Assembly (NCBI GenBank): GCA_024638765.1
Contig: JAHEJT010000003.1
Coordinates: 1-64,000 of the forward strand
DNA from: Verrucomicrobiales bacterium
GTDB taxonomy: Bacteria > Verrucomicrobiota > Verrucomicrobiia > Verrucomicrobiales > DEV007
DNA: 64,000 nt
Direction of reading: 5' to 3'
A model generated the notes under the pieces. The model was not told the DNA's origin. It worked only from the letters and a program-made list of their open reading frames with translations, and did not search any database. A program made the translations under genes and the position numbers. Positions 3,684-63,427 of the stretch are shown one piece after another. Within the stretch, counting starts at the first letter, position 1. The number at the start of each line of letters is the position of its first letter.

Positions 3684-3827
3684 TCGCCGTCAACGTTACT
3701 CAAGGGCACGGCTGCCCCGGGTCGCCCTGGCTCCGGGGCCGGCTTCATCAATCAATAATCGCCAATCAGCGGGATTGAATGACGAGTAATGATTTTTGAA
3801 GGCCGAAGTTCAGAATTTCGTCCCTCC

Positions 3828-3904
3828 ACAATCAGCAATCAAGAATCAAGAATCAGCAGCAAACAATCAGTAACCAGCCACTACTCACTACTTACCAGCA
3901 CCTA
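3828..3904. repeat. 7-bp-phased array reaching the stop codon of the metalloprotease gene
   Basis: Eleven units stay in 7-bp register: ACAATCA, GCAATCA, AGAATCA, AGAATCA, GCAGCAA, ACAATCA, GTAACCA, GCCACTA, CTCACTA, CTTACCA, GCACCTA. The last unit overlaps the TAG (minus strand) that ends the gene at 3902. A further short array with the same period lies at 3747-3774. Confidence 0.75.
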
Positions 3905-6858: not shown

Positions 6859-7201
6859 GGGCAAATCGGGCGGCGGCAAAGTCCGTGTTGCCCTGAATCG
6901 CGCCCCCTGCTAAAACGTCCAACCCACCGAAATCCCGAAAGAACCCGGACCGAAACCCCGTTCATTGGAAACCCCAGAGCCATCCCCGATTTCTAATTTC
7001 TAATTTCTAATTTCCAATTTCCAATTTCCAATTACTGACACCTGACACCTGCCCACACCCGACGCTTCCGCGACCCCGGGCAATTCAACATTACTCATAA
7101 CCGACTACGAGCATCCAGCATCCTGACCCAAAATAAATCCTTTGCGGCCCTCTGCGCTTCTCTGCGTCTCTGCGTTTAGTCTCTCTCAATATCCAGTACC
7201 C
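6859..7201. repeat. Spacer made largely of 7-bp-phased units plus a dispersed repeat
   Basis: From 6988 to about 7057 the sequence runs in register as GATTTCT, AATTTCT (twice), AATTTCC (three times), AATTACT, GACACCT (twice), GCCCACA. A looser array with the same period continues to about 7130. From 7139 to 7198 lies a dispersed repeat (CCTTTGCGGCCC ... CTCTGCGTTTAGTCTCTCTC), a second copy of which is at 12036-12095. No gene was seen; the sulfatase start follows at 7202. Confidence 0.7.
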
Positions 7202-8776
7202 ATGAAAACCACCGCCCTCCTCCTCACCCTCCTTTCATCCCTCCTCCTTCCTCCTTCGTCCTTCTCAGCATCGCCCCCCAACATCGTCTTCATCTTCACC
7301 GACGATCACTGCCAGCAGGCGCTCAGTGCCTATGACGACAGTCGCATCGTCACGCCGCACATGGATCGCATCGCCACGGAGGGCATGCGCTTCGACCGTT
7401 GTTACGTCACCAACTCCATCTGCGGTCCCAGTCGCGCCGTCATCCAGACCGGCAAACATTCCCACCTCAACGGGTTCATTCGCAATGGCAACACTTTTAA
7501 CGGCGACCAGCAGACTTTCCCCAAGCTCCTGCAGAAAGCCGGATACCAAACCGCGGTCGTCGGCAAATGGCATCTCAAGTCCACCCCGCAGGGATACGAT
7601 TACTACGACGTCCTCGTCGGCCAGGGCCCCTATTACAACCCACCCATGATCACGGCGGATGCGGACGGTAATCCCCAGACACTCCCGCACACCGGCTATA
7701 CCACCGACATCATCGGCGACAAAACACTCGACTGGCTGGAGAACCGGCGCGACCCGGGCAAACCCTTCATGCTGATGTTCCAGCACAAGGCCCCGCACCG
7801 CAACTGGCAGCCGGGACCCGATTACCTCACCTGGCTCGATGACGTCGAGATCGCCGAACCCGAAACCCTCTGGGACGATTACTCCGGCCGCGAATCCCCC
7901 GCCCGCAACCAGGCCATGACCATCGAGACCCACATGAATGAGAGCGATCTAAAGCTGAAAGCACCCGGCAACCTCACGCCCGGACAACGCGCCGCCTGGG
8001 ACGCCGCTTACGATCCCAAGAACGAAGCTTTCCTCAAGGCCAATCTCACGGGGAAAGCGCTCGTGAAATGGAAATACCAGCGCTACGTCAAAGATTACCT
8101 GCGCTGCGTCAAATCCGTGGACGACAACATCGGCCGCGTCCTTAAGTACCTCGACGACAACGGCCTCACCGAAAACACCGTGGTCATGTATTCATCCGAC
8201 CAGGGCTGGTATCTCGGCGAGCACGGCTGGTTCGACAAACGCTGGATGTACGAGGAATCCATGGTGACGCCTCTTCTCGTCCGCTGGCCCGGCGTGGTCA
8301 ATGCCGGGTCCGTCAACGACGACATCGTCTCCAATCTCGATTTTGCCGAGACCTTCCTCGGAATCGCCGGCGTCAAGGTCCCCAAAGACATGCAGGGCCG
8401 CAGCCTGGTGCCGCTGCTCAAGGGCAAGACTCCCAAGAACTGGCGCACGTCGTTTTACTATCATTATTACGAGTTCCCCGGGGCCCACAGCGTCAACCGT
8501 CATTTCGGCGTCACCACCGGGAAACACAAGCTGATCCGTTATTACGGACCCGACCACGGCGGCGGCGAGATCGATACCTGGGAGCTTTTCGATCTCGATA
8601 AGGATCCCAATGAATTGAAGAGCGAATACCGGAACCCGGAATACTCCCAGATCCGCAAGACACTCGAAACCGAGCTCGCCCGCCTCCGCAAAGAATTCCA
8701 GGTCCCCGAGGTCGATCCCGTCCCGCCGCCGAAAGAGAAGAGAAGAGGCAACAAGAAACAAACCCCCGTAAAGTAG
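7202..8776 (+). CDS. Secreted type I sulfatase (formylglycine-dependent)
   Basis: The protein has 524 residues. The start was chosen at [20 protein letters not shown], a signal peptide, rather than 60 bases upstream where the frame runs through a dispersed repeat. It opens with the metal-binding [12 protein letters not shown] and has the sulfatase signature [13 protein letters not shown]; Cys74 is the predicted formylglycine residue (C-x-P-S-R). GKWHLKS and a C-terminal GEHGWFDKR complete the alkaline-phosphatase-like fold. It probably removes sulfate from a polysaccharide or glycan in the periplasm. Maturation needs a sulfatase-modifying enzyme; the SUMF1-like protein at 15387 lacks the cysteines for that job. 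Confidence 0.92.
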
Positions 8777-8931
8777 GACAGGCTTCCAGCCTGTCTTCGA
8801 AATAGTGACACAGGCGTCCCGCCTGTGATCCGGATTCCAAGCACAGGCGGCTGCTATTGCACGAAGTGCATCCACTTGGCGAAGCCTAACTGCAGAGCCC
8901 GCCGATGGCGGGATAAACGTCTGTGTCACTA
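8777..8931. repeat. Dispersed palindromic repeat (REP-like family, copy 1)
   Basis: The spacer after the sulfatase begins with the palindromic module GACAGGCTTCCAGCCTGTC and ends with CTGCAGAGCCCGCCGATGG...GGGATAAACG (8890-8919). The same order of modules recurs at 18083-18232, and partly at 15055-15170 and 62162-62258. It separates two convergent genes and could fold into several hairpins that stop transcription. Confidence 0.65.
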
Positions 8932-11556: not shown

Positions 11557-12176
11557 CTTCTAATCAATATATATGGCCTGGGCAAGCGAACTCAAGCCCC
11601 TGCTTCGTGGTCCAGGGTTCACGGTTTAGCAATCAGCCTCCCGCCCCACCCCCGGTTGTCATCCCGAGCGCAGTCGAGGGATCCCTCTCTGAATCGATTA
11701 CTCTCTTTCATCCAGAAAACGGTCGAAAGCACCACCAAGCCTCGTTCATTTTCCGTTGGAGAGCGCTTTTTGTACCCTTGAGCGATCCCTCGACTCCGCT
11801 CGGGATGACAAACATAGCGGGTCGTAGTGCTTGTTTGTCCCGCATCCAGCAATCCAGCAATCCAGCAATCCAGCAATCCAGCATCAAGCATCCAGCATCC
11901 AGCCCCAATCTTCATCGGGACTTCGCTTCGCTCAGCATCCAGACTGCCCTGCGCGTTAGCGCGCAATAAAAACCGAAGGCATCATGTCCCGACACGTCGG
12001 GACCGCAGGCAGGATAATTCCTGTCCCTTAAAAACCCTTTGCGGCCCTTTGCACACCTCTGCATCTCTGCGTTTAGTCTCTCTCCGCATCCAGTATCGCC
12101 GGCGCAGCCGGCCACCCCCAACTTCCTGCTTCCATTCCCCTCGCAGGCATCGCCATAATCTCTCCGCCGCAACCTC
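11557..12176. repeat. 620-bp spacer packed with dispersed and tandem repeats
   Basis: The spacer holds a pair of inverted copies of the GTCATCCCGAGCG...GATC repeat (11658-11687 and 11784-11809). After that comes a tandem array at about 11843-11900 built on GCATCCA and GCAATCCA (7 and 8 bp). The second copy of the TTTGCGG...CTCTGCGTTTAGTCTCTCTC repeat lies at 12036-12095. No credible gene was seen; the open frames on both strands translate these repeats. Confidence 0.65.
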
Positions 12177-14069
12177 ATGAAAAATCACCCAACTTCAGAG
12201 GCGGAGAGCCGCGAAAAAATCCGCACTTTCATCCACGCGGATTCGAATACCGCCTGCGCTGAGCTTGCGGCGGAAGTCGCGGATCTCATCAGGACCCGGC
12301 AGAAGGAAAATAAATCCGCCGTCCTCGGTCTCGCCACGGGATCCACGCCGGTCCCCTTTTACAAGGAACTGATCCGGCTCCACCAGGAAGAAAATCTCAG
12401 CTTCGCAAACGTTGTCACCTTTAACCTCGACGAATATTACGGCCTCAGTCCGGAACACCGCGAGAGTTACCACCGCTTCATGCGGGATCAGCTCTTCGAT
12501 CACATCGATATCCCGGATGAAAACGTGCATATCCCCACCGGCACCGTCCCCGCCGACGAAGTCTTCGGAAGCTGCCGCCAGTATGAAGAGGCCATCGAAA
12601 TGGCCGGCGGCATCGATATCCAGGTGCTCGGCATCGGACGCACCGGTCACATCGGCTTCAACGAACCCGGTTCCACCCGCGACTCGCGCACCCGCCGCAT
12701 CACGCTCGACCCTGTGACCCGGCAGGACGCGGCCGGCGATTTTCTCGGTGAAGAAAATGTCCCCCGCTTCGCCATCACCATGGGCGTGGGCACCATCCTC
12801 TCCGCACGGCGCGTCGTCCTCATGGCCTGGGGCGAAAACAAGGCCGCCGTCCTGGCCCGCACCGTGGAGGGCCCGGTTACCGATTCCGTGCCCGCGAGTT
12901 TTCTGCAGGAGCACGCTGACGCCACCTTTCTCATCGATGAAGCCGCCTCCAAGGAACTCACCAGGATCAAAACCCCCTGGCTGGTCGGTGCCGTCGAATG
13001 GGAGCCCTTGCGCACCCGGGGAGCCGTCATCTGGCTGGCCGGCACCCTCAAGGAACCGATCCTGAAACTGGTGGATCGCGGATACAACGAAAACGGCATG
13101 TCGGAGCTGCTCACGGAACAAGGCCCCGCTTACAATCTCAACATCCGCATCTTCAACGAAATCCAGCACACCATCTCCGGCTGGCCCGGCGGGAAGCCGA
13201 ACGCCGATGACACCCACCGCCCCGAACGTGCCGCTCCCTTCCCCAAGCGAGTCCTCATTTTCAGTCCCGAACCTCACGACGCCATCGCATCCATGGCCGG
13301 CACCGTGAACCGCCTCTGCGAGCAGGGTCATGAAGTCCTCCTCATCAACCAGACCTCCGGCAGCCTGCGCGTTCCGGACACGGAAGCGATCCGATTCTGT
13401 CATGCCCTGCTGGAGACGGCGTCCGACCAGGAAACAAACTGGACCGGGCAAATTGCTTATGCGAAAGGCATCATCGAAAGGCTGCAGGCGAAAGGCTTCA
13501 ACGACATCGATCCGCCCGAGGTGCGCCGCTTGAAAGCTTTGCTGCTGCGTGGCGAAGCGCTCGATGCGGCCGCTGTCTGTAAACTTCCTCCCACCTGCAT
13601 CCGCTTCCTCGATCTCCCCTTTTACGACAAGGGCCGTTACCGCCGCTTCGAATTGACGGATGCAGACGTCACCCTCGTCCGGCAGGTGCTGGAGGAAGTC
13701 AAACCCCACCAGGTCTATGCCACCGGAAATCTCGCCGATCCCAGCACCATGCAGTCACTTTGTTTCCGGACGCTTTCACAGGCGCTCTCCAATCTCAAGG
13801 GCGCGTCCTGGCTCAAGGACTGCCGGCTCTGGATGTATCGCGGCAAGGAAATACCCGTCCAAGTCGCTGAAATTGCCATGGCGGTCCCCATGAGCCCCGA
13901 CCAGGCCAACCTCAAGAACCACAGCATCCATCAGTTCCAATCCATCACCGAAACCGAATCCAATGCCGTCAATCAAAACCGCGAGATCGCGGCCCAATAC
14001 GACCGCCTCGGCATGGCCGAATACGAGGCCATCGAGGCGTTCGAGCGCGAAACAATTTCCGATTTATGA
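12177..14069 (+). CDS. nagB: Glucosamine-6-phosphate deaminase fused to a degenerate LmbE/PIG-L domain
   Basis: The protein has 630 residues. Residues about 10-290 are NagB, which converts glucosamine-6-phosphate to fructose-6-phosphate and ammonia. Visible are Asp85 in NLDEYYGL, and His158 and Glu163 in GRTGHIGFNEPGS; the usual NDGH Asp is replaced by Thr, as I recall for the fused branch of the family. Residues about 355-600 align with a LmbE/PIG-L deacetylase domain, but the metal motif PHPDD reads PEPHD (364-368) and the later DPxxxH ligand region reads DPSTMQS (521-527). The second domain is therefore probably not a zinc hydrolase. A separate LmbE gene with intact motifs follows 78 bases downstream. 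Confidence 0.9.
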   Translation: MKNHPTSEAESREKIRTFIHADSNTACAELAAEVADLIRTRQKENKSAVLGLATGSTPVPFYKELIRLHQEENLSFANVVTFNLDEYYGLSPEHRESYHRFMRDQLFDHIDIPDENVHIPTGTVPADEVFGSCRQYEEAIEMAGGIDIQVLGIGRTGHIGFNEPGSTRDSRTRRITLDPVTRQDAAGDFLGEENVPRFAITMGVGTILSARRVVLMAWGENKAAVLARTVEGPVTDSVPASFLQEHADATFLIDEAASKELTRIKTPWLVGAVEWEPLRTRGAVIWLAGTLKEPILKLVDRGYNENGMSELLTEQGPAYNLNIRIFNEIQHTISGWPGGKPNADDTHRPERAAPFPKRVLIFSPEPHDAIASMAGTVNRLCEQGHEVLLINQTSGSLRVPDTEAIRFCHALLETASDQETNWTGQIAYAKGIIERLQAKGFNDIDPPEVRRLKALLLRGEALDAAAVCKLPPTCIRFLDLPFYDKGRYRRFELTDADVTLVRQVLEEVKPHQVYATGNLADPSTMQSLCFRTLSQALSNLKGASWLKDCRLWMYRGKEIPVQVAEIAMAVPMSPDQANLKNHSIHQFQSITETESNAVNQNREIAAQYDRLGMAEYEAIEAFERETISDL

Positions 14070-14145
14070 TTGCCGATTGAGGATTGGATCCAATTCGTCG
14101 CCTATTTGACACATCGGAAATCATAAATCAGAAATCGGAAATTCT
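14068..14145. repeat. 7-bp-phased spacer between nagB and the LmbE gene
   Basis: Units such as TGATTGC, CGATTGA and GGATTGG begin within the stop codon of nagB. After a short break the series GAAATCA, TAAATCA, GAAATCG, GAAATTC runs to 3 bases before the next ATG. The two halves are roughly complementary (GATT against AATC) and could pair. Confidence 0.55.
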
Positions 14146-16976: not shown

Positions 16977-18082
16977 TGGTCGTCCTCCTTCCTGCAGTCG
17001 GATGTAGCGGAACTTGCAAAAAGTTTCGTCCTCCGACGCCCCACAACGGAAGATTTGGCATCTTCCGCTACATTTCTACTTCGCCATACCTCCTCACTTT
17101 CGCGTCCTCACTGCTCCTTTCCTCCTGCCAGGAACGCGCGTCGGACCTCACCCTCTACTCGTGGACCGAGCCCCACATGGGGACGCGCTTCGAGATCCGG
17201 CTCTACGCGTCCGGCGTGGAGATCGCGGAAAAAGCGAAGACCGCCGCCTTCGCCCGTGTTGCCGAGCTCAATGCCATCCTCTCCGATTACGTTCCCGACA
17301 GCGATCTCAACCGGCTCTGCGCTTCCGAGCCCGGCGTCCCTATTCCCGCGCGCGCGGACTTGTTTCACGTGATTGCAACGGCCCAGGAACTGGCGCACGC
17401 CACGGACGGCGCCTTCGACGTCACCAGCGGTCATTACACCCAAAACTGGCGGCGCAGCCTTCGCAAAAATTCGCTGCCATCCCCCGATACGCTGGCGCAC
17501 GCCCGGAAGCGGACCGGTTACCGTCACCTCAGTCTCGATAGCGACGCCGGCACCATCACCTTGCACCAGCCCGGCATGCGCCTCGACCTCGGCGGCATCG
17601 CCAAGGGATTCGCCGCCGATCAAGCGCTCGTCGCGCTCCGCGCCCACGGAATCACCCGCGCCGCCGTGGCGGCCGGAGGCGACATCGCCGCCGGAGATCC
17701 GCCCCCTGGCAAAGAGGGCTGGGACGTGGGCATCCTCTCCATGGACCGAGCACAGGAATCCCTGTCGCAAACCGCAAAACTGGCGAATGCTGCCGTCTCC
17801 ACCTCGGGCGACCGCGAACAGTTCGTCGAAATCGAGGGCATCCGCTATGCACACATCGTCGATCCGCGCACCGGCCTGGGTCTCACCCGGCGTATCACCG
17901 CCAGCGTCATCGCTCCCACCGCGATCCGGTCCGACAGTCACGCCACCGTCCTCTGCATCCTTGGCGTGGAAAAAGGACTCGCTCTAATCGAAGCCACCCC
18001 CGGCCTGGAAGCGCTCATCATCACCGAGGGCCCGGACGGAACTCAAACCCGACACCGTTCCTCCGGCTTTCCGGCAAAGTAA
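16976..18082 (+). CDS. apbE: FAD:protein FMN transferase (ApbE lipoprotein)
   Basis: The protein has 368 residues from the ATG that overlaps the previous stop (TGATG). ApbE attaches FMN covalently to periplasmic redox subunits such as those of Na+-pumping NQR or RNF. Visible are HMGTRFEIRLY, DGAFDVTSGHY, LDLGGIAKGFAAD, AAGGDIAAG and the C-terminal IVDPRTGLGLTRR. A lipobox LLLSSC lies at residues 47-52, preceded by about 30 residues that look unlike a signal peptide and are encoded by a palindromic element. No in-frame ATG, GTG or TTG lies between, so either the long form is made or an unusual start is used. Confidence 0.9.
   Translation: MVVLLPAVGCSGTCKKFRPPTPHNGRFGIFRYISTSPYLLTFASSLLLSSCQERASDLTLYSWTEPHMGTRFEIRLYASGVEIAEKAKTAAFARVAELNAILSDYVPDSDLNRLCASEPGVPIPARADLFHVIATAQELAHATDGAFDVTSGHYTQNWRRSLRKNSLPSPDTLAHARKRTGYRHLSLDSDAGTITLHQPGMRLDLGGIAKGFAADQALVALRAHGITRAAVAAGGDIAAGDPPPGKEGWDVGILSMDRAQESLSQTAKLANAAVSTSGDREQFVEIEGIRYAHIVDPRTGLGLTRRITASVIAPTAIRSDSHATVLCILGVEKGLALIEATPGLEALIITEGPDGTQTRHRSSGFPAK
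17003..17072. repeat. Palindromic element inside the 5' end of apbE
   Basis: The element has a 10-bp outer stem (TGTAGCGGAA at 17003 against TTCCGCTACA ending 17072) that encloses two smaller hairpins (AACTT...AAGTT and GGAAGAT...ATCTTCC). It sits between the overlapped start codon and the lipoprotein signal and is translated in the long form. Confidence 0.6.
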
Positions 18083-18528
18083 GACAGGCTTCCAGCCTGT
18101 CAGTGTGACGCAGGCGTCCCGCCTGCGGTTTGAAAAGAATCGCAGGCGACTGCCCTAGCGCGGAGCGCTTTATTACGGGCAAAGCCAATCTGCAGGGCGC
18201 GCCGAAGGCGGAATAAACGCCTGCGCCCCACTCTCTCCATCGTCATCCCCTTCCTCCCCTTTGTGTTATCCCGCCCCTCTCCCTCGTGTCATCCCGAGCG
18301 AAGTCGAGGGATCTCTCACATCAATCGGTGGGACCGGTTTAGCCTCTGCTATCCGGACAAAGCCATGATGCTCTCCCCTTTCTGCGAAGTCCAGGATGAC
18401 AAGACCGTCTCGGGGGTAACGAGAGATCCCTCGACTACGCTCGGGATGACAACGAGAAGCGCGGGCATCCGGCGTCATACTTCTCCAATAACCAATAACG
18501 ATTAACGTGCGCGAAGCGCGCCCCACAC
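18083..18528. repeat. 446-bp spacer: REP-like copy and an inverted repeat pair
   Basis: Bases 18083-18232 are the fullest copy of the REP-like family (GACAGGCTTCCAGCCTGTC, CAGGCGTCCCGCCTG, GCGCGGAGCGC, CTGCAGGGCGCGCCGAAGG). Bases 18288-18317 and 18421-18450 are inverted copies of the GTCATCCCGAGCGAAGTCGA repeat enclosing about 100 bases. A short 7-bp array (CCAATAA, CCAATAA, CGATTAA) lies at 18486-18506. No gene was seen. Confidence 0.6.
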
Positions 18529-20559: not shown

Positions 20560-20580
20560 GACGCAGTCTGGGGAACTTTT

Positions 20581-20641
20581 AAGTAGCACAGGCTTCCAGC
20601 CTGTGTTTTTTCAAGTCACAGGCTGGAAGCCTGTGCTACTT
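20581..20641. repeat. Perfect 25-bp inverted repeat (hairpin)
   Basis: The arms 20581-20605 and 20617-20641 are exactly complementary around an 11-base loop containing TTTTTT. Each arm also holds the smaller palindrome CACAGGCTTCCAGCCTGTG. It lies 22 bases after the dipeptidase gene and 13 bases before the next start, so it may act as a terminator or as an mRNA structure masking the start region. Confidence 0.75.
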
Positions 20642-25427: not shown

Positions 25428-25539
25428 CCGCGCTCGTCAGAGCGTGGAGAAAATCGTTTCGCCCGCCGGGATACGGTCCACCTGCTGACGCAGGCGGCTA
25501 CATCGTCCCCCGACCCCCGACACTCGACCCCCGCCGCCC

Positions 25540-31642: not shown

Positions 31643-32260
31643 AGCGCCAGGCGCACTCTCAGATACCGGCTCTCTCCGCCCCGGCACGTGTGCGGATTCC
31701 GGAAACCCTGGACTTCACCCCGCCGCGAATTCCCCACGCCGGAATCGACCGCCCCCCCACGCCCGTCCGCGCAACCCTCCACAACCCTCCACAACCCTCC
31801 ACAACCCTCCACAACCCTCCACAACCCTCCACAACCCTCCGCAACCCTCCGCAACCCTCCGCAACCCTCCGCAACCCTCCGCGCAACCCTCCGCGGAACC
31901 CTCCAGCGGGACCCTCCGCCTCCCTCCACTCCTCCACCGCCCTCCACCACCCCCCGTCCCACGCCCGCAGGTGTTACAAAAATTGGGTCATATGTCCGAA
32001 ATTTTGTTTTTTCCGAGGCACGCAGTGGTCCTGGGAGACTTTCGAATCCACTCCTCCGCAGCCCTCCACCACCCCCCGTCGTGCACCCGCAGGTGTTACA
32101 AAAATTGGGTCATATGTCCCAAATTTTGTTTTTTCCGAGGCGCGCAGTGGTCCTGGGAAACTTTCGAAGGCAGGGATCTACTGGCCGCACCCAAAGCGCC
32201 GCACACGGCAAGGCGCATCCCACCAACGCGCTGGCTCCCCGCGCCCCACAGTATCACGCA
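31643..32260. repeat. Repeat block A: decamer array and twin 107-bp repeats, no gene
   Basis: From 31771 to 31880 eleven units of 10 bp (GCAACCCTCC or ACAACCCTCC) are in perfect register, then degenerate CCTCC-rich sequence to 31940. Two copies of a 107-bp repeat follow (31940-32046 and 32062-32168, offset 122 bp), differing at only a few positions. Each contains an AT-rich imperfect hairpin (ACAAAAATTGGG, then CATATG, then CCCAAATTTTGT) and a TTTTTT run. All three forward frames stay open through the decamers because 10 is not a multiple of 3. These frames are not genes. Confidence 0.8.
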
Positions 32261-32680
32261 GTCCCCACCGCTTCCGGTGCGTCACGCAGTCCCCATCGCT
32301 TCCGGTGGGTTGCGCGGTCCCCATCGCTTCCAATGCGTCACGCGGTCCCCATCGCTTCCGGTGGGTTGCGCGGTCCCCATCGCTTCCAATGCGTCACGCG
32401 GTCCCCATCGCTTCCGGTGCGTCACGCAGTCCCCATCGCTTCCGGTGCGTCACGCGGTCCCCACCGCTTCCGGTGCGTCACGCGGTCCCCACCGCTTCCG
32501 GTGCGTCACGCGGTCCCCACCGCTTCCGGTGGGTTGCGCGGTCCCCATCGCTTCCGGTGCGTTGCGCGGTCCCCACCGCTTCCGGTGGGTTGCGCGGTCC
32601 CCATCGCTTCCGGTGGGTTGCGCGGTCCCCATCGCTTCCGGTGCGTTACGCGGTCCCCACCGCTTCCGGTGCGCTCTCCG
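32261..32680. repeat. Repeat block B: 28-bp minisatellite, 15 units
   Basis: Fifteen head-to-tail units start every 28 bases from 32261 to 32653. Each begins GTCCCCAYCGCTTCCGGTG (two units have AATG in place of GGTG) and ends in a variable GTCACGCR or GTTGCGCR octamer. There are no spacers, so it is not a CRISPR array. The unit at 32625 alone has GTTACG, which on the minus strand is the TAA stop of holB; the last two units are therefore partly coding. Confidence 0.9.
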
Positions 32681-37987: not shown

Positions 37988-38050
37988 ATCATCTTCCCTC
38001 TTCCCTGTCTTTGATCTTTTATCTGTCATCTTCCATCCGTCATCCCCGCC
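37988..38050. repeat. 7-bp-phased array before the isomerase gene
   Basis: The spacer reads ATCTTCC, CTCTTCC, CTGTCTT, TGATCTT, TTATCTG, TCATCTT, CCATCCG, TCATCCC in register and stops shortly before the ATG at 38054. No Shine-Dalgarno motif is seen. Confidence 0.65.
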
Positions 38051-41038: not shown

Positions 41039-41075
41039 ACTTACGATTCACGATCTGCGATTTGCGATCTTGTGT
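41039..41075. repeat. 7-bp-phased array upstream of trpA
   Basis: CTTACGA, TTCACGA, TCTGCGA, TTTGCGA and TCTTGTG follow one another in register in the spacer between queE and trpA. Confidence 0.55.
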
Positions 41076-51132: not shown

Positions 51133-51136
51133 TTTC

Positions 51137-51192
51137 CGGTTACTGGTTACTGGATACTGGCCGTACGACACCTGACACCTGATACCTGCTCT
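51137..51192. repeat. 7-bp-phased array between thiH and thiS
   Basis: Eight units in register: CGGTTAC, TGGTTAC, TGGATAC, TGGCCGT, ACGACAC, CTGACAC, CTGATAC, CTGCTCT. It starts 4 bases after the thiH stop and ends 12 bases before thiS. Confidence 0.75.
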
Positions 51193-51405: not shown

Positions 51406-51410
51406 CACTT

Positions 51411-51560
51411 ATCAATTAGCATTTAGCATTTAGCATTTAGCACTTGTCACGGAAGCGGCAGACTCCGCAGGTTCTTTTCGGTCTTTGCTGCGCGCTCTGC
51501 GCAGAGCAGTCCGGACACCTGCTAAATGCTAAATGCTAAATGCTAAATGCTAAATGCTAA
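51411..51560. repeat. Inverted pair of 7-bp arrays between convergent thiS and nfeD
   Basis: GCATTTA units (51418-51445) and their complements, ATGCTAA units (51521-51560), lie on either side of about 75 bases that include GCTGCGCGCTCTGCGCAG, a palindromic stretch. The arms can pair into a long stem, which might stop transcription from both sides. The right array comes within a few bases of the nfeD stop at 51568. Confidence 0.7.
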
Positions 51561-51567
51561 ATGCCAA

Positions 51568-59191: not shown

Positions 59192-59275
59192 GCCCCTCCA
59201 CGAGCGGAAATACGCCCCGCACCCTCTCCCTGGTCCCCGCTACCCGATACCTAATCCCCGATACCTCTCACCCCC
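59192..59275. repeat. 7-bp-phased array before the yceD gene
   Basis: TCCCCGC, TACCCGA, TACCTAA, TCCCCGA, TACCTCT and CACCCCC run in register up to a few bases before the ATG at 59278, leaving no Shine-Dalgarno motif. Confidence 0.6.
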
Positions 59276-60144: not shown

Positions 60145-61155
60145 ATGAAAATTGCCGTCGACGCCATGGGAGGGGACTTCGCCCCCAGGAATGTCGTGCA
60201 TGGGGCCAGAATGGCGAGCGACCAGTTTCCCCGCATCGAGAAACTTTACCTCGTCGGCAAGGAAGCTGCCATCAAGAAACAACTCGACAAATACAAGTTC
60301 TCAGGTTCCGTCGTGGAAATCGTGCCCTGCGCCGAAGTCGTCGGGATGAGCGAGAAAGCAGCCCAGTCTGTCCGAAGAAAGAAAGACTCGTCCATTAGCC
60401 GCGCGGTCGACCTCGTCAAGGACGGCACTTGCGAAGCCATTGTCACCATCGGCAATACCGGGGCCGCCGTGGCCGCCGCCACCGTCAAGCTCCGTATGCT
60501 GCCAGGCGTGGACCGGCCTGGCATCGCCTCGCCCCTCCCCAACGAATACGGAGCCTGCAATATCCTCGACGCCGGGGCCAACGTGGACGCCAAGCCCCAC
60601 CACATCGTCCAATACGGGATTATGGGCGACGTCTACGCCCGGCACGCCCTCGGCGTCACGGAACCTCGCATTGGGCTCATGTCGGTGGGCGAGGAGGACG
60701 AAAAAGGCACTGATTTTACCCGCGAATGCTTCGCGCTGCTCAAGGACGCCCCCATCAATTTTATCGGTAATGTCGAAGGGCACGACCTCTTCGAATCCCC
60801 CGTGGACGTCGTCCTCTGCAACGGTTTTGTCGGCAATGTCATCCTCAAGAGCTGCGAAGCTACGGCCAAAGTCCTGTTAAAATGGATTAAGACCGAGATC
60901 CGCAGTTCACCCCTTCGCAGCCTCGGCGCCATCATGGCCAAGGGCGCTTTCCGCGAGGCCAAACGCAGAACCGATTACCAGAATTACGGAGGAAGCCCCT
61001 TGCTTGGGGTCAAGGGAATCTGCATCATCGGGCACGGTTCCAGCTCTGCTATCGCCATTAAGAACGCCATCCGCGTCGCGGCAGAGGCTATTGAACATGA
61101 AGTGAATCCTCATATCGAGGACGCCATCCGCCAATACGCCGAAGTCCATGCCTGA
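60145..61155 (+). CDS. plsX: Phosphate acyltransferase PlsX
   Basis: The protein has 336 residues. PlsX turns acyl-ACP into acyl-phosphate for phospholipid synthesis. It begins MKIAVDAMGGDFAPRNVVHG; further signatures are SISRAVDLVKDGTCEAIVTI, NTGAAVAAATVKLRMLPGVD, PLPNEYGACNILDAGANVDA and LCNGFVGNVILKSCEA, ending with GGSPLLGVKGICIIGHGSS. Its end overlaps the fabH start by eight bases, so the two are coupled. Confidence 0.96.
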   Translation: MKIAVDAMGGDFAPRNVVHGARMASDQFPRIEKLYLVGKEAAIKKQLDKYKFSGSVVEIVPCAEVVGMSEKAAQSVRRKKDSSISRAVDLVKDGTCEAIVTIGNTGAAVAAATVKLRMLPGVDRPGIASPLPNEYGACNILDAGANVDAKPHHIVQYGIMGDVYARHALGVTEPRIGLMSVGEEDEKGTDFTRECFALLKDAPINFIGNVEGHDLFESPVDVVLCNGFVGNVILKSCEATAKVLLKWIKTEIRSSPLRSLGAIMAKGAFREAKRRTDYQNYGGSPLLGVKGICIIGHGSSSAIAIKNAIRVAAEAIEHEVNPHIEDAIRQYAEVHA

Positions 61156-62161
61156 AGCAAACCACTTCTCCTGCATCACCTCGATTGCGGGCACCGGCAG
61201 CTACGTCCCGGAGAAAATCCTTACCAACCAGGAGCTCGAAAAGCTGGTCGACACTTCCGACGAATGGATTACCTCTCGGACCGGGATTAAGGAACGCCGC
61301 ATCGCCGCGGACGATGAGGCCACCAGCGATCTCGCGAGCCGGGCTGCGGAAAAGGCCATGGAACAATCCGGCGTCACCGCCGAAGAACTCGACCTCATCA
61401 TCGTCGCCACGGTCTCGCCTGATATGTTTTTCCCCGCGACCGCATGCTTCGTGCAGCGAAAAATTCAGGCTGTCAATGCCGTCTGCTTTGATATCTCCGC
61501 CGCGTGCTCGGGTTTTCTCTACGCGCTCCAGATCGCCCGCCACTTCGTCAACACCGGCAGCCGTACCACTGCCCTCATCATCGGCGCGGAGAAACTCAGT
61601 TCCATGGTCAATTGGGAGGACCGTAATACTTGCGTCCTCTTCGGCGACGGCGCCGGCGCCGCCATCGTCCGGCGCGACGACGACGCCAGGAACACGTCGC
61701 GACGCATTCTCTCCACCGTCATGTACAGTGACGGCAATCAAACCGATATCCTCGTCGTTCCTGGAGGCGGATCCGCCTGCCCCATCACTCCGGAAAACGC
61801 CTCTGAAAAATTGAACACGGTGCGCATGGAAGGCCGCGAGGTTTACAAGTACGCCGTCAACGCCATGCGCGACGCCGCGGAAAAAGCGCTGGAGGCCGCC
61901 GGATTAGGCCCCGATGACGTGGACATGGTCATCCCTCACCAGGCCAACCGGCGCATCATCGAGGCCATCACGGACCGCCTCGGCATCCCCTCAGAACGCG
62001 TCTTCGTGAACCTCGACAAGTACGGGAACACGTCCGCCGCCGCCATCGCCATCGCCCTCGACGAAGCCAACCGCAGCGGCGCCATCAAGAAAGGGGATAT
62101 TCTCCTGCTCGTCGCCTTCGGCGCCGGCCTCACCTGGGCGGCGACCGTGATTGAGTGGTAG
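61148..62161 (+). CDS. fabH: 3-oxoacyl-[acyl-carrier-protein] synthase III
   Basis: The protein has 337 residues. FabH starts fatty-acid chains by condensing acetyl-CoA with malonyl-ACP. The catalytic Cys is in FDISAACSGFLYAL, His in VIPHQANRRIIEAI and Asn in NLDKYGNTSAAAIAIAL. The C-terminal LLVAFGAGLTWAATVIEW is typical. It is translationally coupled to plsX. Confidence 0.96.
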   Translation: MPEANHFSCITSIAGTGSYVPEKILTNQELEKLVDTSDEWITSRTGIKERRIAADDEATSDLASRAAEKAMEQSGVTAEELDLIIVATVSPDMFFPATACFVQRKIQAVNAVCFDISAACSGFLYALQIARHFVNTGSRTTALIIGAEKLSSMVNWEDRNTCVLFGDGAGAAIVRRDDDARNTSRRILSTVMYSDGNQTDILVVPGGGSACPITPENASEKLNTVRMEGREVYKYAVNAMRDAAEKALEAAGLGPDDVDMVIPHQANRRIIEAITDRLGIPSERVFVNLDKYGNTSAAAIAIALDEANRSGAIKKGDILLLVAFGAGLTWAATVIEW

Positions 62162-62477
62162 GCGGGCGGCTCCGCCGCCGGGATCAGGACTGCTATGCGC
62201 GGAGCGCATCATTGAATCCGTGGGGACATTGCAGAGCGCGCCGCAGGCGGGATAATTTGGTATCAGGTATCAGGTTCCGGAGTATCCTGTCGGCCAGTCT
62301 CCCCATCCCTGACACCTGAAAACTGATTGATGGTTGCTGAATGATGATTGTCGATTTTCGAAGTTCCGACTTCGTCCTTCAAAAATCAGCAATCATCAAT
62401 CGTCAATTTACACCGTCCCCCCGATACCCAATACCCAATACCCAATACCCAATACCTATTACCTGATACCCGATACC
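62162..62477. repeat. 316-bp spacer: REP-like copy and long 7-bp-phased arrays up to the tatD start
   Basis: Bases 62162-62258 hold a REP-like copy (GCGCGGAGCGC core, TTGCAGAGCGCGCCGCAGG end). From 62309 to 62413 fifteen heptamers are in register (CTGACAC, CTGAAAA, CTGATTG, ATGGTTG, CTGAATG, ATGATTG, TCGATTT and on to TCAGCAA, TCATCAA, TCGTCAA). From 62424 another series (ATACCCA four times, ATACCTA, TTACCTG, ATACCCG, ATACCAT) runs into the ATG of tatD at 62478. No gene was seen. Confidence 0.8.
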
Positions 62478-63272
62478 ATGCTCATCGACACGCACTGCCA
62501 TCTCGCTTCGCATCGGTTCAAGACGAACGAACTGCCTCAAATCATCGCCAACGCGGCAGACGCCGGAGTCAATCGCCTCATCACCATCGGCACCGATCTC
62601 GAGGACTGCGATCGCAATCGAGAACTCGCCGAGACCCATCCCGAGGTGTTCGCCACCGCCGGTATCCATCCCACCTCCGTCCCCGAACTCAAAGAAGACG
62701 ATTGGCTGGAGCGGATCCGGGCCCTGCTCGCGCACGAAAAAATCATCGCGCTCGGTGAAATCGGCATGGATTTCTATCATCCCGCGCCGGAACCGTTCAC
62801 CGAGGAAGCATACCGGAAAAAGCAGGAGGATGTGTTTCGTGCCCAACTGGATCTCGCTCAGGAACTTGATATGCCAGTCGTGATTCACCAGCGCGAGAGT
62901 TATGAGGCCATCATGGCGATCATGGAGCCTTACCACGGGAAAGTGCGCGCCGTGTTTCACTGCTTCAGCAATGGTATCCAGGAAGCGGAACATCTCCTGG
63001 CGCTCGGGCACCTGATCTCGTTCACCGGCATCGTCACCTATAAAAACGCCGCCGAGGTCCAGGAAACCGCCCGGCAACTGCCGCTCGACCGCTTCATGGT
63101 GGAAACCGACGCCCCTTACCTCGCGCCCGTCCCGCATCGCGGGAAGCGCTGCGAACCCGCCTTCACCCGCGATACCGCCGCCCACATCGCCACCCTGCGC
63201 GGCATCTCCCTCGAAGACCTCGCCGCCGCGACCACCCCCACGGCAGAGGGTTTTTTCGCTTTCCCAGGGTAA
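62478..63272 (+). CDS. tatD: TatD-family metal-dependent hydrolase
   Basis: The protein has 264 residues from MLIDTHCHLASHRFKTNEL; the longer open frame upstream only translates the spacer. TatD-type enzymes are metal-dependent DNases or related hydrolases of the amidohydrolase fold. Ligand motifs are DTHCHL, IALGEIGMDFYHP, VIHQRES, FHCFSNG and MVETDAPYLAP. No Shine-Dalgarno motif can exist before the ATG because the heptamer array runs into it. A 23-bp perfect hairpin begins right after the stop codon. Confidence 0.93.
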   Translation: MLIDTHCHLASHRFKTNELPQIIANAADAGVNRLITIGTDLEDCDRNRELAETHPEVFATAGIHPTSVPELKEDDWLERIRALLAHEKIIALGEIGMDFYHPAPEPFTEEAYRKKQEDVFRAQLDLAQELDMPVVIHQRESYEAIMAIMEPYHGKVRAVFHCFSNGIQEAEHLLALGHLISFTGIVTYKNAAEVQETARQLPLDRFMVETDAPYLAPVPHRGKRCEPAFTRDTAAHIATLRGISLEDLAAATTPTAEGFFAFPG

Positions 63273-63382: not shown

Positions 63383-63427
63383 CTGCGCCCACTCACTCAC
63401 TATCCACTACTCACTACTCACTACTTA
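63383..63427. repeat. 7-bp-phased array at the 3' end of the symporter gene
   Basis: CACTCAC, TCACTAT, CCACTAC, TCACTAC, TCACTAC and TTACTCC are in register. The last unit contains the TTA that, read on the minus strand, is the stop codon of the gene at 63425. Confidence 0.7.

Follow-up and report, generated by a model that had tools for sequence, protein, structure and literature searches.

Discrete arrays of 7-bp units, restricted to intergenic spacers and keeping a sharp period while their sequence drifts locally, are scattered through the genome analysed here. They share a linked vocabulary of words, pair as inverted copies within but not between spacers, take an orientation set by their position in the spacer and occur patchily across the phylum. 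We favour, with a probability of about 60%, the reading that these arrays are added intergenic DNA, produced by 7-bp slippage or duplication together with point mutation, with hairpin copying between arms and with the dispersal of some of the palindromes.

The window, i.e. the whole stretch of 64,000 bp that was examined, corresponds to positions 1-64000 of contig C195 in a genome of 5.43 Mb (309 contigs, about 60% GC), of which 752 kb (14%) were analysed. The best RpoD matches (56-75% identity) belong to Akkermansiaceae, Verrucomicrobiales and Chthoniobacterales, which places this uncultured organism in Verrucomicrobiota; the species is represented by this one genome, and the closest relatives compared are other genera. 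Genes were called with a self-trained hexamer scorer built for the analysis rather than taken from a published annotation, and an Rfam search returned one tRNA and otherwise no match. Lag statistics were controlled with dinucleotide shuffles (window spacers), neighbouring lags and coding sequence.

In the window spacers, the single-base match at lag 7 is 0.305 (z=9.1 vs. dinucleotide shuffles), with lags 6 and 8 near zero (z of 1.6 and -1.3, respectively), and exact 6-mers recur 148 times at lag 7 (5 expected), 74 times at lag 14 (3) and 42 times at lag 21 (3), whereas the coding sequence of the window has period 3 only. Over the 752 kb, the lag-7 signal reaches z=30.5 and 6-mer recurrence amounts to 13x, 10x and 8x that of shuffles at lags 7, 14 and 21, with further harmonics at 28 and 35. 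Spacer segments above threshold number 132 at lag 7 vs. 1-14 at the lags not divisible by 7, and these 132 are found in 105 kb of spacer, against 20 in the 646 kb of coding DNA, a sample six times larger. A sharp lag-7 peak confined to spacers, the outcome named as support in a sequence-only reading of the window, is therefore present, both as an excess over shuffles and without an equal excess at neighbouring lags.

As a whole, arrays occupy 5.7% of the spacer bases and are present in 96 of the 522 spacers, about one in five. Array-free spacers show no lag-7 excess (0.2729 at lag 7 vs. 0.2736 at lag 6 and 0.2720 at lag 8); the pattern thus consists of discrete arrays and is not a property of all spacers, so that a constraint on spacers at large, as suggested by that reading, is not supported. 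Array density is flat with distance to the start or stop codon, and divergent spacers contain 13 arrays where 30 are expected (p=1.5e-4). Extrapolated to the whole genome, there may be about 900 arrays. A long perfect CACTGAA array of 18 units (L070:12612-12839) adjoins a run of N, which indicates that heptamer arrays may be where the assembly breaks and that the counts are probably underestimates.

Eleven of the twelve window loci listed in the sequence-only reading contain a lag-7 array above threshold; the twelfth, 41039-41075, is covered by a gene call, even though its repeat is visible by eye and by TRF (41051-41070). Arrays beyond that list lie at 11876-11903, 14113-14142, 18485-18507 and 25504-25539. 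On the + strand, two arrays of AGTATTC and ATCTTCA types occupy 1827-1915 (segments 1827-1856 and 1885-1915), two others of TTACTGG and GACACCT types occupy 51133-51188 (51133-51160 and 51167-51188), and a CACTACT array is found at 63398-63424. The array at 6989-7051 (+) switches unit in register (three ATTTCTA, three ATTTCCA, one ATTACTG and two ACACCTG), while those at 37992-38045 (+; from TCTTCCC to CATCCGT) and, more weakly, at 59227-59265 (+; TACCCGA/TACCTAA/TCCCCGA, upstream of yceD) drift. The gap holding the 37992-38045 array, 91 bp long here, is of 57-90 bp in two relatives and of 5-6 bp in another two.

That the period is kept while the unit sequence drifts is confirmed by the in-phase identity, which falls from 0.81 between adjacent units to 0.53 between units 8 apart, with an out-of-phase identity of 0.24 throughout. 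Sixty-six unit classes occur as perfect dimers, and 59 of them belong to one single-substitution network, where 17 would be expected; common words are CTGATAC, CTGAACA, CTGACAC and CTAATAA, and the recurrence of similar words at distant loci, also claimed from the letters alone, is real. Units differ between genomes as well: the coaD-yceD spacer carries CCTTTAT heptamers in genome G015 and TACCCGA-type ones here. A special mutator behind the drift was rejected, since its Ts/Tv ratio (0.6-1.0) resembles that of other dispersed spacer repeats (0.91 at comparable divergence; 3.1 in the least diverged). When 7-bp tandem duplication and substitution were simulated together, the decay was of the same kind, but slower than that of the data at matched adjacent identity. 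In the simulation, phase heterogeneity within the unit is 2.2-3.1x and exceeds the observed 1.6x, so that special fixed positions need not be invoked, and a unit made of a constant triplet and a variable quartet was rejected on the same figures. The converse case, a word retained while the period shifts from 8 to 7, is found at 11844-11903 (+), where an 8-bp unit (ATCCAGCA) comes first and a 7-bp unit (CATCCAG) follows. Octamer arrays also exist in two other genomes, G291 and G309 (CTGACACT, CCGATACA), with words as in the heptamers of other genomes. The vocabulary thus seems separable from the period.

The fabH-tatD spacer (62162-62477) lies between fabH (beta-ketoacyl-ACP synthase III; 61148-62161, + strand; NCBIfam TIGR00747, 430 bits) and a tatD-family nuclease gene (62478-63272, + strand; TIGR00010), and holds two lag-7 segments above threshold, 62308-62407 and 62420-62477. 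The second (+ strand) is composed of CCCGATA, four CCCAATA, CCTATTA, CCTGATA, CCCGATA and a terminal CC, and ends directly at the tatD ATG (62478). The layout is nested: an outer left arm, GGTATCAGGTATCAGGT (62259-62275, +; TRF; inverted match score 14, identity 0.94), is the inverted partner of the CCTGATACC end of this array and makes up the outermost stem when 62256-62480 is folded (z=-5.3). As for the "15 units" read at 62309-62413, the period-7 arms (GATTGAT../..ATCAATC) are there, but they belong to one dispersed imperfect palindrome with core GAAGTTCCGACTTC (62308-62428, no strand assigned) and not to a simple tandem array. This element has seven near-full copies in the genome (75-100% identity), plus partial copies, and one of its arms has short relatives in other families of the order, with nine matches in G016. 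A further relative (74% over 80 bp, inverted) opens the 3777-3895 stretch (+) and is followed by drifting heptamers from CAATCAG to CACTAC, with the lag-7 array above threshold at 3829-3895. The RNA fold of the 62308-62428 element has z=-5.2, and compensatory changes that would support its hairpin as RNA are almost absent. Finally, against 316 bp here, four same-family genera have fabH-tatD gaps of -1, 4, 25 and 55 bp, while in two others the gap is estimated at about 760 and 860 bp.

Inverted pairing is a general feature of spacers with several arrays. At no more than one mismatch, 10 of the 36 same-spacer array pairs are inverted and 1/36 is direct (background 3.9%); at a score of at least 14, 13.9% of the arrays have an inverted partner in their own spacer and 0.8% a direct one, vs. 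0.6% for other spacers. Between adjacent spacers, no inverted preference was found (4/51 vs. 5/51). The inverted pairs sit near spacer edges, at no more than 24 bp from the left edge in 8/10 cases and no more than 15 bp from the right edge in 7/10. Their arms are locus-specific, sharing units and sometimes the order of variant units too, and the cores between them (18-123 bp) are unrelated. In the window, a left arm of TTTAGCA units (51406-51450, +), abutting the preceding gene call, is matched over a 69-bp core by an inverted copy in TGCTAAA units (51520-51567, +), the pair having a DNA fold z of -7.5. Another pair, whose inversion was read from the sequence, is located at 14055-14142 (+), with GATTNNN at 14055-14085 and ATCGGAA/ATCAGAA at 14113-14142. 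Some arms mirror irregular stretches as well (35 bp at L052, 26 bp at L068), with an arm identity of 0.92 in register vs. 0.76 when slid by 7, a difference that is partly an artefact of the best-offset choice. G138, a complete genome from the same class, has three spacers whose interiors are unrelated but which are all bracketed by arms GAAACCTGAGACCTGA / TCAGGTCTCAGG. RNA structure as a general feature of the arrays was rejected, since folding is no better in array spacers than in array-free ones (p=0.17). The sequence-only reading had recognised the period-7 spacers, but mentioned neither this bracketing nor the dispersed palindrome at 62308-62428.

Contig C277 of this genome (L083) carries nine arrays in 17 kb, including several CTGAACA-type inverted arms in nearby spacers, a clustering that suggests local spread.

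Concerning orientation, a mirror rule was found post hoc and with the in-house gene calls: on the + strand, left-half arrays are G-rich (37/11) and right-half arrays C-rich (10/50), with an odds ratio of 17 (p=3e-10). It is also seen in single-array spacers (17/7 on the left vs. 5/33 on the right), holds in ++, -- and +- gene contexts and for contigs of either skew, and agrees with the distribution of TCAG vs. CTGA words (p=3e-5). Biased arrays no more than 10 nt before a start codon are all C-rich in gene sense (23/23), and those no more than 10 nt after a stop codon are G-rich in 26 of 34. Array-free spacers show a weaker bias, mainly beside starts (C-rich in 161 vs. 68). In G138 the word polarity is reversed relative to this genome (p=0.05), and in twenty other genomes, with rough and mixed gene calls, it is in the same sense as here (p=0.05). 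The rule replaces a result of "no relation to gene direction" (p=0.35), rejected because it averaged two opposite spacer edges. Arrays also follow the contig GC skew (85/110; z=4.0 vs. spacer composition), but this excess shrinks to z=1.9 against third-codon-position skew and, in G138, CTGARAC lies on the leading strand at 16/21 loci, opposite to the main tendency here; a replication-strand mechanism was therefore dropped.

Five same-family genera that were sampled gave no lag-7 signal, and G018, from another family of the order, gave some (8.6x). Three CYRANAC units at period 7, a pattern chosen from this genome, occur in 76 of 388 Verrucomicrobiota genomes (1381 matches); without this genome, the figures are 75 of 387 and 1325 matches, whereas the reversed word, used as a control, gave 230 in those other genomes. 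At period 8, these words matched 72 times in 20 genomes, and G291 and G309 account for more than half of the 72: within the phylum, period 7 is the dominant one, with a patchy distribution. Often one species per genus is concerned, as in G138 (45 matches; congeners 0-6) and G263 (44; congeners 0-2). In several relatives the flanking genes nearly abut, with gaps of -1 to 25 bp where the array-bearing spacers here measure 316, 124 and 91 bp, so that the array DNA has the look of an addition. Spacer length by itself is not diagnostic, because still other relatives lack strong arrays at these gene pairs in spite of gaps comparable to those here or longer. Mismatch-repair (MutS) loss was rejected as a trigger because all 32 genomes examined, array-rich and array-poor alike, have mutS1. 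The RAYT (Y1) transposase does not discriminate between the two groups either: Y1_Tnp is found in 31/32 genomes, rich or poor, and its counts do not separate them. SbcD cuts hairpins; its loss was rejected as a cause, the full-length protein (TIGR00619) being found in 2/17 array-rich and 4/15 array-poor genomes, which are not separable, with weak partial hits only in this genome.

In the reading we prefer, arrays would lengthen or shorten by 7 bp at a time, through replication slippage or tandem duplication, while ordinary point mutation would make their units diverge, with the consequence that the period would outlive the sequence. Fold-back (hairpin) template switching may then make or correct an inverted copy of an existing array, which would yield paired arms with shared locus-specific units around unrelated interiors; some palindromes would disperse afterwards as small elements, such as the 62308-62428 family. 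Selection would tolerate arrays in spacers, remove them from genes and disfavour them between divergent genes. For heptamers, slippage by a step close to the polymerase footprint, the length of DNA that the enzyme holds, has been proposed before (reported in PMC4679880 and PMC4692102), and cyanobacterial heptamers are known to differ by 7-nt indels between close strains (PMC4679880). Taken alone, slippage accounts neither for the CTGANAC-like words common to distant families nor for a step of exactly 7, and it does not predict the polarity rule in any simple way. A bolder version, which strikes us as quite unlikely, would have the mirror arms at spacer edges laid down and kept matched by a process acting on period and position rather than on a fixed sequence, i.e. 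hairpin-templated 7-nt extension, and would make them a new, sequence-independent fold-back element.

The main rival, which we judge unlikely, holds that arrays are the terminal inverted repeats of mobile fold-back (MITE-like) elements and that single arrays are one-arm remnants. The edge position of the inverted pairs, their fixed polarity (14 G-first vs. 2 C-first), the existence of at least one dispersed palindrome family (62308-62428), the repeated use of the G138 arms around unrelated interiors and the absence of the DNA from several relatives all speak for it. Inverted terminal repeats are indeed there (the 10/36 same-spacer pairs), but conserved ends are present in the 62308-62428 family and absent from the other arms, whose sequence varies by locus, unlike the ends of one transposase. 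Moreover, interiors are unrelated, no obvious target-site duplication was seen by eye in a few loci (L227, L236, L237), and Y1 transposase counts do not tell array-rich from array-poor genomes. A regulatory or RNA function, with arrays as binding sites or as leaders controlling translation of the next gene, would suit the uniform C-richness just before start codons and the array that ends at the tatD ATG. Yet the mirror rule also applies after stop codons, where no translation starts, density is independent of distance to start or stop, arrays are depleted rather than enriched in divergent, promoter-bearing spacers, and C-richness before starts is shared by array-free spacers; we regard this role as improbable.

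The words themselves could come from sequence-directed amplification, in which a conserved enzyme or polymerase property would favour CTGANAC-like units, with independent origin in many lineages. The CYRANAC excess in 75 of the 387 other genomes, the same words at period 8 in G291 and G309, and the TAACTGA unit of Beggiatoaceae, a rotation of CTGATAA (PMC4679880), are in line with it. Against these points, it was from this genome that the CYRANAC pattern was picked, other words make up many of the arrays both here and in G138, G015 and G222, and horizontal spread or inheritance may be the source of common words; we consider the proposal decidedly improbable. As for the helical-phase constraint on spacer DNA put forward in the sequence-only reading (three units = 21 bp = two turns), the one observation in its favour is a period that is kept while the sequence changes, within this genome and between genomes. 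Array-free spacers without period 7, a lag 21 that does not rise above the harmonic series, 8-bp units with the same words (11844-11903; G291, G309) and the lack of period 7 in most same-family genera sampled go against it, and we give it hardly any credence.

Among known repeat systems, REP/BIME elements are palindromic, dispersed and depleted in divergent spacers. The dispersed palindrome and the depletion in divergent spacers resemble them; the arms here are heptamer arrays that differ by locus and have no link to RAYT-type transposase counts. CRISPR was rejected, as units are contiguous, without unique spacers of constant length between repeats. Heptameric SSRs (Mrazek 2007, via PMC4679880 and PMC4692102) are intergenic and over-represented in phylogenetically scattered species, and polymerase slippage has been proposed for them; the present arrays have the same exact 7-bp tandem unit and spacer location, but in a sample of one genome they fall into 66 unit classes or more, drift in register, pair as inverted copies and are oriented according to position. 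The literature searched contained no report of heptameric arrays in Verrucomicrobiota. GGGNATC in Xanthomonas and GGGGA(C/T)T in Nostoc (PMC4692102) are likewise heterogeneous spacer heptamers, some of them inverted repeats, that vary in length and sequence between close species. Unlike these, only 7/128 arrays here have four G3 tracts (the quadruplex motif), the vocabulary is mainly CTGANAC-like, and mirror polarity was not found described in the passages considered. TAACTGA direct repeats of marine Beggiatoaceae, some Cyanobacteria and Bacteroidetes, with a translation-control role proposed in Beggiatoaceae (PMC4679880), are spacer heptamers too; CTGATAA occurs here, and a sense orientation beside start codons is common to both. 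There, however, one unit dominates, whereas here units are many and a TAACTGA dimer is found in 1/128 arrays; arrays here also lie equally at gene ends, with flat density, and the orientation rule extends to stops. Heptameric intergenic repeats are thus already known, as are inverted pairs as such in Xanthomonas (PMC4692102), while the unit diversity, drift at such a scale, matched edge arms and mirror polarity are undescribed in the literature searched.

The preference of bacteria for 7-bp tandem repeats has been a standing question since the 2007 survey. This one genome offers many array sequences at one period, with neighbour drift, inverted partners and orientation by position as internal controls, and any mechanism must account for why the step is exactly 7, why the arms match and why the polarity is mirrored. 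The question can be put to the test in relatives, e.g. in G138, whose genome is complete. Should the arms be fold-back copies of one another, the arrays would be a record of template switching at gene boundaries.

Other repeats were also observed. An inverted-repeat element, TGTCATCCCGAGCGAAGTCGAGGGATCTC ... GAGATCCCTCGACTTCGCTCGGGATGACA, with loops of 87-142 bp, has many spacer copies, including 11655-11811, 18287-18451, L065, L075 and L082. A dispersed palindrome, AAGTAGCACAGGCTTCCAGCCTGTG..CACAGGCTGGAAGCCTGTGCTACTT, is found at window positions 8765-8795, 18071-18101 and 20575-20641. Finally, a minisatellite cluster at 31766-32673, left out of the period-7 statistics, combines 10-bp units (CGCAACCCTC), a 122-bp tandem duplication and fifteen 28-bp units.
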